From the NCBI GenBank assembly GCA_903919375.1, contig CAIXHZ010000035.1, positions 1 to 45,993 on the forward strand: 45,993 bases of DNA, in the 5' to 3' direction. This stretch comes from an uncultured Actinomycetes bacterium. GTDB lineage: Bacteria > Actinomycetota > Actinomycetes > Nanopelagicales > Nanopelagicaceae. Under the pieces are notes generated by a model. The model saw nothing but the letters and a program-made list of their open reading frames with translations, was not told the origin of the DNA and ran no database searches. This document shows, in pieces, positions 24,393 through 27,982 of this stretch (its first letter is position 1; each line of letters starts with the position of its first letter). A program made the position numbers and the translations under genes.

Positions 24393-25508
24393 ATGGACCA
24401 CAATCGGCTCTTCCCGCGCTTGCTCCCGGGCGTCCACTTCTCATGGGAACAGGACCATCTCTACCTGGGATATCGCCACCGAGGAATCGAAATTGAACTC
24501 ATCCGAGCAGAGGCGATCTCTCAGAATTCCGAACTCACTCCGCCGATTCTCGCCGCGACCCTTGATATGAGCCGAGGAGAATTTTCACTCTCAGAAATAT
24601 TTCGCACAGTCGCGCCACCTGGCTCAGAGAATGAACTCACCGCGCTCTTCACTCGGCTGGAATCATCGGGTTATCTCACCTTCGATAATCTCTCAACTAG
24701 ATCCAAAACTCTCCGCACAGTCAGCGAACTCAGTCATGCGGGTCGAGCACTCCCCGAACTCAATCTCGCCCGCTCTGCTCATTCGATTAGCGATCGTCGA
24801 GAGCGCTCCATTCTGATTTTCGGTGAAAATCGGCTCGCCCATCACCTGACCATCTTGTTGCGGGCATCCGGATTTGGATTGGTAAAGCGAATCGATCGAC
24901 GGGAAGTTGATCGTCGTGATAACCCAGCGATTTCACCACAGATCACGCCGCAAGAAATCATCGGGCTCTCATTCCGCCAAAGTGATATCGGTCGCGATCG
25001 GGCCGCATTGATTGCCGAACTTGAGAGTGGTATCAACATTCATGAACAGCACGCGCCTGGTAAAGATCAAGCCCAGCAAGGTTTTCCCAGTACCCCCTCA
25101 TTGATTATTACCACCCATGAAACCCAACCGGATTACCGCTATCGATGGATGAATGAGGGAATCCCTCATCTTCTTATCTCTTCACTTGCTGATCACCAGA
25201 TCGAGATTGGCCCCATTGTTCTCCCGGGCCAAAGCCCCTGTGGGCGATGTATCGAAATGGCTGAAAGCGCCATAAATCCGATATATCGAAAATGGCGCAT
25301 GAAGGAGATGCATGCCACAGGCGTCGAACTCTCATCAGCAACTGTGAGCGCAATAGGAGGCCTTGTCGTACTCGAACTCATCTCATTCTTTAACGGCAAT
25401 TCCACGCTGATCGGGCGAAGCAAGCGCTTTGACTTACATAATGCAATGAGCCCAGTAGATCTCTACTGGGCTCCTCATCCAGAGTGCGGATGCACGCAAC
25501 TCAATTAG
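24393..25508 (+). CDS. ThiF/E1-like protein (TOMM-leader-binding-like), orphan
   Basis: 371 aa; N-terminal winged-helix-like region (DMSRGEFSLSEIFRTV..), central Rossmann-like region (ILIFGENRLAHHLTILLRASGF), CGRC...CGC putative tetracysteine zinc site near the C-terminus. Confidence 0.6.
   Translation: MDHNRLFPRLLPGVHFSWEQDHLYLGYRHRGIEIELIRAEAISQNSELTPPILAATLDMSRGEFSLSEIFRTVAPPGSENELTALFTRLESSGYLTFDNLSTRSKTLRTVSELSHAGRALPELNLARSAHSISDRRERSILIFGENRLAHHLTILLRASGFGLVKRIDRREVDRRDNPAISPQITPQEIIGLSFRQSDIGRDRAALIAELESGINIHEQHAPGKDQAQQGFPSTPSLIITTHETQPDYRYRWMNEGIPHLLISSLADHQIEIGPIVLPGQSPCGRCIEMAESAINPIYRKWRMKEMHATGVELSSATVSAIGGLVVLELISFFNGNSTLIGRSKRFDLHNAMSPVDLYWAPHPECGCTQLN
25448..25473. repeat. 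Perfect 11-bp stem/4-nt loop inverted repeat inside the E1-like CDS
   Basis: GAGCCCAGTAG-ATCT-CTACTGGGCTC; no T-run follows on either strand. Confidence 0.85.
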
Positions 25509-25530
25509 TGCGGATGCACGCAACTTAACT
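25483..25530. repeat. 24-bp tandem duplication across the E1-like stop codon
   Basis: AGTGCGGATGCACGCAACTCAATT / AGTGCGGATGCACGCAACTTAACT, two mismatches. Confidence 0.95.
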
Positions 25531-25878
25531 AGCTAACTCCATCTCATCGACTGAATTCATCACAGGCGTTAATCGTGGCCGTCCTGCCTTTCGCTTAGCC
25601 ACGATCGTTCTGCCATCTTCGAAGAGTTCGCCACCCCAAACACCACATGGCTCTTGACGCGAGATCGCACCTTCGAGGCACTGGGCTTTGAGTGGACAAC
25701 CACCACAGAGCGCCTTTGCAGATGCGATCGTAAGTGCATTATCCGAGAAGAATGTTTCGGGCTCGGCTGTGTGGCAGGGTAGGTTAAAGGTAGCGTCGGC
25801 GGTATAGCCAACTCCGACCTTTGCCTCAGGGCCTTCGGCCCAACCTGGTACCAACAATTCGCTGAAGAGAACGCTCAT
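25525..25878 (-). CDS. whiB7: WhiB-family transcriptional regulator, WhiB7/WblC-like
   Basis: Four-Cys pattern (CHTAEPETFF..LCGGCPLKAQC), EPCGVWGGE turn, AT-hook-like KRKAGRPR tail; located downstream of a uvrD2-like gene. Confidence 0.85.
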   Translation of the reverse strand: MSVLFSELLVPGWAEGPEAKVGVGYTADATFNLPCHTAEPETFFSDNALTIASAKALCGGCPLKAQCLEGAISRQEPCGVWGGELFEDGRTIVAKRKAGRPRLTPVMNSVDEMELAS

Positions 25879-25932
25879 CGCATCTCACCTTTCTGCTCCG
25901 GTTAACTTTCTTCTCGTTTAATTGCTCTTTTT

Positions 25933-25969
25933 CTTTTAACTTTTTAACTTTTTAACTTTTTAACTTTTA
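25933..25969. repeat. 8-bp microsatellite in the whiB leader
   Basis: CTTTTAA-(CTTTTTAA)x3-CTTTTA on plus; AAAAAGTT-type repeats on the whiB strand. Confidence 0.95.
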
Positions 25970-25991
25970 GGGAACTTTGCCTAGATAAAGC

Positions 25992-26025
25992 AAAAGGGCC
26001 GCTCATCCGATTGGATGTGCGGCCC
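25992..26025 (-). terminator. Intrinsic terminator between the leader ORF and whiB7 (candidate attenuator)
   Basis: Minus strand GGGCCGCACATCC-AATC-GGATGAGCGGCCC-TTTTGCTTT. Confidence 0.9.
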
Positions 26026-26043
26026 TGGGGCTTTAACTCTCAG

Positions 26044-26232
26044 CTAGCTGAGGTTGCTCCAGGATCCGCTACCCATAAAATGCTTATTGGCATATGCGGC
26101 TGCATAGGCGCGATAAGCGTGGGCTGCGGTTGTATGAGGGCGAGTAGCTGGTGTAGCTGCTACCGATGCCAAGGCGCGCCAAGCCGACGCGGTAACCGCG
26201 TTTGCTCCTGCAGAAATGATTGCCTGTGACAT
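26044..26232 (-). CDS. 62-aa Ala-rich upstream ORF, candidate whiB7 leader peptide
   Basis: MSQAIISAGANAVTASAWRALASVAATPATRPHTTAAHAYRAYAAAYANKHFMGSGSWSNLS; TACCCT lies 7 nt upstream of the ATG; stop codon 18 nt before the terminator stem. Confidence 0.65.
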   Translation of the reverse strand: MSQAIISAGANAVTASAWRALASVAATPATRPHTTAAHAYRAYAAAYANKHFMGSGSWSNLS

Positions 26233-26239
26233 GTTGTAA

Positions 26240-26279
26240 AGGGTAGGGGATCAAGAATTGATGGCGCAACCCAATTAAT
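26240..26279 (-). promoter_or_regulatory. Candidate leaderless promoter for the whiB7 leader
   Basis: Minus strand ATTAATT-GGG-TTGCGC-N18-TACCCT-N7-ATG; AT-rich tract 3 nt upstream of the -35. Confidence 0.5.
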
Positions 26280-26299: not shown

Positions 26300-27982
26300 T
26301 TATTGCGAGATTGCGCTCAAAAATGGGCTCGGCTGACCGAAATAGGAGATTTCGATCCGCGATTTCGCCCGGGTCAGGCCCACATAGAAGAGGCGACGCT
26401 CTTCATCGATCGCTGTGCCCATCGGCAAGAGCCCATCACTGACACCGGCTAAATAGACAATCTCCCACTCCAAGCCTTTGGCGGCATGCAAAGTGGCCAG
26501 AATGACGCCTGGCAGAGTTGGCGGATTGTTCTGCTCGGCCCGATCTTCGAGCTCGCGCAAGAAGGTGCGCATCGATGGCGCACCATCATCGAACAAAGTC
26601 TGCGCTAGTCGAATGAGCGCTTGGATGTAATCGGCATCGCCAAAGGGGCGAAGAATAGATTTCACATCATCGAGCCAATTACCGTCTTCGGATGGAAGTA
26701 CCGATGATTGACGAATCACTTTCATGACATCGCGAACATCGGTGCGCTCAAAGAAGCGCTCATTGCTCTTGACCTGGGTCTTCACGCCCAGCTCTCCTAG
26801 CGCTGATTCAAAGAGTTCCAATTGAGAATTCGTTCGAGTAAGAATTGCGATCTCTGGCATCTCTGGACCTTGATTGATTAAATCGCGAATCGATTGCGCA
26901 ATTGTTTTTGCTTCCAGTTGTGCGGAATTAAATCCAGAGACACTTGGCTTGGCGCCAGAAGTATTCATTGAGGCAAGCTCATGGCCCTCTGTTCCGAGCA
27001 TTCCACCAGCGCGTAAAACCGCATTGGCACTTCCAATGATTTCAGGGGTCGAACGATAGCCACGAGTGAGTCGAATTACTTGAGCTTCCGGGAAGCGTCG
27101 AGTGAATCCCAAAAGGAATGTCGATGTAGCGCCCGCAAATGAGTAAATCGTCTGGGCAGCATCTCCCACCACGCAAATATCATCGCGAGTGCCCAACCAA
27201 AGATTGAGAAGGCGCTGCTGCAATGGTGAAACATCTTGATATTCATCGACAGTGAAATATCGGTATTGATCACGGACTTTGTCGCGAGCAGTCTTATCTT
27301 CTTCCAGCATCCCTACAGTGAGCAGCAGGACATCTTCAAAATCTATGGATCGTTCTTGTCGCTTAAGGGTTTCGTAGGCATCATAGATTTTTGCAATATC
27401 GCCAAACTTTTCGCGATCACCACGACCGCTACCTAACCGAAGTTCTCGGCCAAGTGTCGTTGCCTGGTCTACATAATCCTGAGGACCGATCTCTAGCGCC
27501 TTCGCCCATTCAATTTCGCTAGCGATTTCGCGCAAGTTGCTGGCCGAAGGCGCAAGCGTGCTATCGGATCGAGAGAGAGATTCCGAGATAAAGCCAGATT
27601 TCATCGTTAAGAGCGATGGAAATTGCCCCCCAAAAGAATATGGCCAAAAGTAAGTGAGCTGTTTGAGAGCTGCTGCGTGAAAGGTTCGCGCAGTGGCATT
27701 GGGGACTCCGAGTGAACGAAGGCGGGCCCTCATTTCACCAGCTGCTCGAGCAGTAAAGGTGAGAGCTAATACTTTTCCGGGAACAGTAACGCCCGCTGCA
27801 ATCGCATAAGCGATCCGGTGGGTGATGACTCGGGTCTTACCGGTGCCGGCGCCCGCAATCACACAGACTGGTCCCTTGATCGCGGTAACAACTTCGCGTT
27901 GTTCGGGATCCAAGTGAGCAAGGATTGATTCCATGCTGCGCACGGGATCAGGAGTTAAGTGGCTGGCCATACCAAGCTTCAA
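26300..27982 (-). CDS. uvrD2: UvrD/PcrA-family (SF1A) DNA helicase, UvrD2-like
   Basis: GAGTGKTRVITHRIAYA Walker A, VDEYQDVSPLQQ, GDAAQTIYSFAGA, TLHAAKGLEWEIVYLAG. True start may be MESILAHLDPEQREVV. Confidence 0.9.
   Translation of the reverse strand: MKLGMASHLTPDPVRSMESILAHLDPEQREVVTAIKGPVCVIAGAGTGKTRVITHRIAYAIAAGVTVPGKVLALTFTARAAGEMRARLRSLGVPNATARTFHAAALKQLTYFWPYSFGGQFPSLLTMKSGFISESLSRSDSTLAPSASNLREIASEIEWAKALEIGPQDYVDQATTLGRELRLGSGRGDREKFGDIAKIYDAYETLKRQERSIDFEDVLLLTVGMLEEDKTARDKVRDQYRYFTVDEYQDVSPLQQRLLNLWLGTRDDICVVGDAAQTIYSFAGATSTFLLGFTRRFPEAQVIRLTRGYRSTPEIIGSANAVLRAGGMLGTEGHELASMNTSGAKPSVSGFNSAQLEAKTIAQSIRDLINQGPEMPEIAILTRTNSQLELFESALGELGVKTQVKSNERFFERTDVRDVMKVIRQSSVLPSEDGNWLDDVKSILRPFGDADYIQALIRLAQTLFDDGAPSMRTFLRELEDRAEQNNPPTLPGVILATLHAAKGLEWEIVYLAGVSDGLLPMGTAIDEERRLFYVGLTRAKSRIEISYFGQPSPFLSAISQ

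Follow-up and report, generated by a model that had tools for sequence, protein, structure and literature searches.

The 62-codon open reading frame at positions 26044..26232 of the minus strand (ATG to TAG, 19 alanine codons) very probably acts as the leader in a ribosome-mediated attenuation of whiB7 transcription, with a shortage of charged alanine tRNA as the favoured cue for ribosome stalling, another charged tRNA or an antibiotic being alternative cues. It lies in a window of 45,993 nucleotides (contig CAIXHZ010000035.1) from an uncultured member of the Nanopelagicaceae, whose genome assembly comprises 1.39 Mb in 158 contigs. As a regulatory leader of whiB7, a stress-response gene, the 62-residue peptide is ordinary, and its reading frame, referred to as uORF, is a further instance of the already known whiB7/wblC attenuator type. 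The case is built from sequence, namely from ORF conservation, alanine bias, a terminator, the complementarity and covariation of an antiterminator and promoter geometry, and from these we infer translation, a leaderless start, termination, induction and alanine as the favoured signal.

Translation of the minus strand from 26232 to 26044 yields exactly the 62-residue peptide that an earlier sequence-only reading had proposed as a whiB7 leader, and 31 homologous ORFs are open in the same frame, which bears out the reality of the ORF. As that reading had also stated, the peptide belongs to no recognised family, since no Pfam/NCBIfam match was found at E <= 1e-3 / 0.01; an Rfam search of the window returned a tRNA as the sole match and no family for the leader. 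The uORF sits between a UvrD2-like helicase gene (26300..27982, minus strand; profile match and synteny) and a WhiB gene (25525..25878, minus strand), 165 nt upstream of the start of the latter, and shares its strand with both neighbours. The downstream gene encodes 117 residues, matches the Whib domain PF02467 in a profile search (E 2.9e-14) and contains a GVWGGELF turn and a basic tail KRKAGRPR, in which the AT-hook reads AGRP in place of RGRP; a Shine-Dalgarno-like GAAAGG precedes it at 25888..25893 (minus strand). Almost every related genome of the family encodes a close counterpart of this protein. In mycobacteria, uvrD2 is a neighbour of whiB7, an arrangement resembling the present locus, and we take this synteny to be a further mark of identity. 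Because of the Whib domain, the GVWGGELF and KRKAGRPR motifs, the family-wide counterparts and the uvrD2 neighbour, the WhiB gene is identified as WhiB7. The spacer from the uORF stop codon to the whiB7 start is highly variable in length among relatives (112-291 nt), and tandem GTTAAAAA-type repeats in about four copies are found here in the stretch that separates the terminator from the whiB7 start (25922-25971, minus strand). The convergent neighbour at 24393-25508 (plus strand) is weakly similar to TOMM leader-peptide-binding (cyclodehydratase-type) proteins (TIGR03882, E 0.005, below the cut-off), and ORFs like it adjoin whiB7 in several related loci.

DNA upstream of whiB7 was extracted to obtain a set of related loci, 30 of which carry an ORF in the same position. 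The uORF measures 47-73 codons in this family, with a median of 59. When species genomes were scanned, 80 named whiB7 loci were retrieved, most of them mycobacterial, and in 71 a uORF that starts with ATG and has a Shine-Dalgarno sequence ends right before a terminator-like hairpin; the mycobacterial leaders were located via their terminators, for which an inverted-repeat search was used as strict terminator finding missed many. These 71 actinobacterial leaders span 28-101 codons (median 55; approximate lengths, as we chose the start codons), and 27 of them reach at least 62. The length of 62 codons is therefore normal for a whiB7 leader, contrary to the earlier statements that it is unusual and that whiB7 uORFs are usually shorter.

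A promoter of the WhiB7 type is predicted immediately upstream of the uORF on the minus strand. It is composed of an AT-rich box TTAATT (26273..26278) in the WhiB7-type autoregulatory position, a predicted -35 element TTGCGC (26264..26269), of which TTGCG is conserved in the genus, and a predicted -10 element TACCCT (26240..26245) ending 7 nt before the ATG. The resulting order TTAATT-3-TTGCGC-18-TACCCT has the geometry reported for WblC/WhiB7 promoters, in which 3 nt separate an upstream AT-rich box from the -35 element and the spacer measures 16-19 (PMC7157823). The sequence of the box is not the GAAAWY of Streptomyces, and nearly all same-genus loci show TTAAT(T/C) as the box, separated by 3 nt from a downstream TTG(C) -35 element. 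All 23 same-genus loci (window included) possess a -10 element of the form TANNNT, in almost every case TACCCT, that ends 6-7 nt before the ATG, and no Shine-Dalgarno sequence was found upstream of the uORF in any of the 23; therefore, the uORF is predicted to be leaderless in the lineage of the window. Several other genera of the family carry a uORF Shine-Dalgarno sequence instead (L029, L031-L033). A generic sigma-70 scan did not list the promoter, whose hexamers are far from consensus. In a search of the own genome and the genus, the WhiB7 box exceeded chance at the whiB7 promoter only and was at chance level elsewhere, and therefore no regulon is claimed; other recurrent matches were examined at three loci, where they overlap reading frames of the opposite strand.

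At the other end of the leader, an intrinsic terminator is predicted at 25988..26025 (minus strand) here and in all 30 relatives, consisting of the stem GGGCCGC-ACATCC-AATC-GGATGA-GCGGCCC followed by UUUUGCUU; the stem begins 18 nt past the uORF stop codon and the U-tract is imperfect (UUUUGCUUU). The generic scan lists no terminator at this site, the stem having an inner mismatch. Codons 55-59 of the uORF (AGC GGA TCC TGG AGC, S-G-S-W-S) contain GCGGATCCTGGAGC (26056..26069, minus strand), the conserved and covarying 5′ arm of a predicted antiterminator, which is complementary to the 3′ arm GCCCCAGGGCCGC (26019..26031, minus strand), and the terminator stem's entire 5′ arm lies within this 3′ arm. 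The predicted pairing joins the TCCTGGAGC codons with GCCCCAGGG. The tip of the antiterminator is formed by the hairpin CTCAGCTAGCTGAG (26039..26052, minus strand), which has undergone compensatory changes in relatives and holds the uORF stop codon (26044-26046) at its centre. The gene downstream, the terminator and the antiterminator together support the previously proposed role as a whiB7 leader peptide in an attenuator.

The leader region is strongly structured (z = -2.9), and, in all 19 representatives tested, transcripts ending before the 3′ arm of the terminator form a single long hairpin whose tip carries the stop codon. Antiterminator and stop-codon hairpin are paired in 89% of the alignment cells, compared with 28-45% in slid-partner controls, and two-sided changes affect 10 pairs versus 2.1 expected in shuffles, none of 500 shuffles being as high. 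For example, CCUGG/CCAGG becomes CUUGG/CCAAG in other genera (L029-L031) and CCCGG/CCCGG in L036, and tryptophan is replaced by arginine with pairing retained in L036/L037. In a swap test on ten divergent loci, the uORF end paired with its own terminator arm at a mean of -17.9 kcal/mol versus -14.8 kcal/mol with those of other genera (permutation P = 0.00015). Arm sequences are nearly invariant within the genus, so that the covariation resides in about ten divergent loci. According to these data, the predicted antiterminator pairing is maintained by compensatory changes across genera. In many mycobacterial leaders, GCGTCCGTGG (A-S-V-D/N) is complementary to CCACGGACCC of the terminator arm, and a duplex of this type clearly outperforms shuffled sequence in no more than roughly half of the 71 loci (mean z -1.6); an SWSPP end was searched for in the mycobacterial leaders and found in none.

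We propose the following scenario for the switch. The autoregulated promoter would start transcription at the uORF ATG or immediately beside it, and ribosomes reaching the stop codon would cover the S-G-S-W-S codons, such that the terminator forms and RNA polymerase halts before whiB7. A ribosome stalled in the uORF body at codons up to about 50, either by lack of charged alanine tRNA or another charged tRNA or by the slowing action of an antibiotic, would leave the S-G-S-W-S codons to pair with the 3′ arm, thereby sequestering the 5′ arm of the terminator and permitting readthrough into whiB7, whose product might then boost its own promoter. A masking model, run over P-site positions with an assumed ribosome footprint of +16 nt, gave an antiterminator of -28 kcal/mol with the ribosome at codons 44-50, of -11 kcal/mol at codon 53 and none at the stop codon. 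Since the equilibrium pairing of the terminator arm differs modestly (about 0.55 for an upstream stall versus 0.75), the switch is presumably kinetic, as in other attenuators, with the antiterminator forming first.

Alanine makes up 19 of the 62 residues (31%), against a background of 10.8% in the window's long ORFs (binomial P = 1.7e-5), in which the maximum for any 62-residue stretch is 15. Across the three sense frames, GCN triplets number 19/3/2 for the window ORF and amount to 24%/6%/5% over the 31 homologues; the excess is confined to the coding frame, and the bias is therefore one of codons and not of base composition. The alanine content of the uORFs in the family ranges from 12 to 31% with a mean of 20%, the value of the window being the highest, and averages 31% in 62 mycobacterial leaders and 11% in 9 from other actinobacteria; like the length, the alanine-richness is ordinary for whiB7 leaders. 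The Pseudonocardiaceae-type leaders (L129, L144, L149, L155, L166-L168), with 8-13% alanine, are not alanine-rich. Acidic residues are nearly absent from the leaders, and GAN triplets account for just 1-2% in each of the three frames of the leader RNA over 31 loci (L005-L037). An avoidance of Asp/Glu as residues that are never limiting was considered and dropped, GAN being about equally rare in every frame; the avoidance may act at the RNA level and reflect a possible RNA constraint.

The meaning of the alanine codons is the point at which an alternative competes seriously. The leader might be a general sensor of slowed ribosomes, whether caused by antibiotics or by any amino-acid shortage, and its alanine-richness incidental, as a by-product of small neutral residues or of codon composition; this disputes the alanine part alone and leaves the attenuator itself untouched. 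We give this reading a considerable chance, if somewhat below even, as the characterised whiB7/wblC leaders answer many ribosome inhibitors and amino-acid shortages, the Pseudonocardiaceae-type leaders are low in alanine (11%, 9 loci), and threonine and serine are enriched besides alanine. The enrichment of threonine is frame-specific like that of alanine, which suggests that the sensor need not respond to alanine only. A merely incidental origin is, however, at odds with the frame-specificity of the alanine enrichment (24% versus 5-6%), with its extent of 2.4-fold over background in the family of the window and 2.7-fold in mycobacteria, and with the position of all 19 alanine codons within codons 4-48, ahead of the control point at about codon 50. 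The comparative argument that alanine codons have been selected in the whiB7 leaders of two distant groups leads to a more far-reaching proposal, which we put forward tentatively and hold for possible, though less likely than not: a coupling of whiB7 to alanine supply via the alanine codons of the leader would not be restricted to mycobacteria, but be either ancient or have arisen twice, and would also operate in small-genome actinobacteria of another family, in which the leader has turned leaderless. Alanine sensing becomes testable in this way by simple codon-swap reporters.

Independently of its composition, the uORF appears to be kept as a reading frame. The sequence-only reading had named stops or frameshifts in homologous leaders as refuting the ORF and had suggested a dN/dS comparison. 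The uORF is intact in all 30 related loci, none being broken by a stop or frameshift, whereas just 4/31 and 2/31 loci are open in the two remaining sense frames and 0/31 in any antisense frame. The pN/pS ratio of the uORF body in closely related pairs is 0.48, i.e. below 1, versus 0.10 for WhiB7, and indels have a length of 3n in 10 of 13 cases inside the ORF versus 9 of 31 outside (P = 0.005, from related pairs that are not fully independent). On the basis of the absence of stops, the frame-specific openness, the pN/pS ratio and the 3n indels, the frame is probably translated and under selection, the exact amino acid sequence being loosely kept.

It is very improbable that the peptide itself acts, be it as an arrest peptide that stalls its ribosome or in a function of its own after release. 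Such a role could be read from the motif GSWSxIG, which the alignment shows to be conserved at the C-terminus within the genus, but the codons of this motif are those of the antiterminator arm and vary with the RNA partner, the motif being replaced where the partner changes (L033, L036, L037). For this reason, the conservation of the peptide end is best attributed to the RNA. The amino acid sequence drifts in the remainder of the uORF, away from the RNA-pairing 3′ codons, and accepts insertions of 3n length, no amino acid constraint independent of the RNA was found, and the mycobacterial leaders end differently (SV[ND]RG), many of these ends being also complementary to their own terminator arm. 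Thus, of the stall-prone segments surmised earlier, the alanine-rich body persists as a plausible stall or sensor segment and an arrest peptide does not; a peptide function beyond attenuation, likewise surmised, is unlikely in view of the drifting body and of a motif that follows its RNA partner. The C-terminal motif shared by the leader peptides of the family would be explained as an antiterminator arm and not as a peptide signal. Still less credible is a fortuitous ORF in a structured 5′ UTR that functions independently of translation, e.g. as a ligand- or protein-bound attenuator, as the strong RNA structure (z = -2.9) would allow, because the Rfam match in the window is limited to a tRNA and the frame is conserved in all relatives without stops, with 3n indels and with pN/pS below 1.

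Attenuation of whiB7/wblC transcription by a uORF is known from Mycobacterium and Streptomyces (Lee et al. 2022, Burian & Thompson 2018; related in PMC10727445, PMC11550727 and PMC9618640), and the present leader extends it to actinobacteria with reduced genomes (1.4 Mb). The systems have in common the uORF, the intrinsic terminator, whiB7 downstream and the autoregulated promoter, as well as an antiterminator that combines the end of the uORF with the terminator's 5′ arm. In contrast to the mycobacterial uORF, which has a Shine-Dalgarno sequence about 10 nt upstream (PMC4128351), the leader described here is predicted to be leaderless; its pairing codons specify GSWS and those of mycobacteria SV[ND]RG, and its stop codon is placed at the tip of the antiterminator hairpin. 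In mycobacteria, whiB7 responds to alanine starvation (Poulton et al. 2024), and ribosome stalling on the uORF is said to induce it, as reported in PMC13236596 and PMC10727445. The alanine-rich uORF body is shared with that system; with regard to a regulon and an activation of the alanine biosynthesis gene aspC by WhiB7, the WhiB7-box pattern occurs here at chance level outside the whiB7 promoter. Mycobacteria also possess leaderless polycysteine attenuator ORFs (Canestrari et al., as cited by PMC13236596), which resemble the present uORF as leaderless short ORFs with a codon bias towards one amino acid that control a downstream gene; they are described there as acting by translation attenuation on cysteine genes, whereas the leader described here would act by transcription attenuation on a stress regulator.
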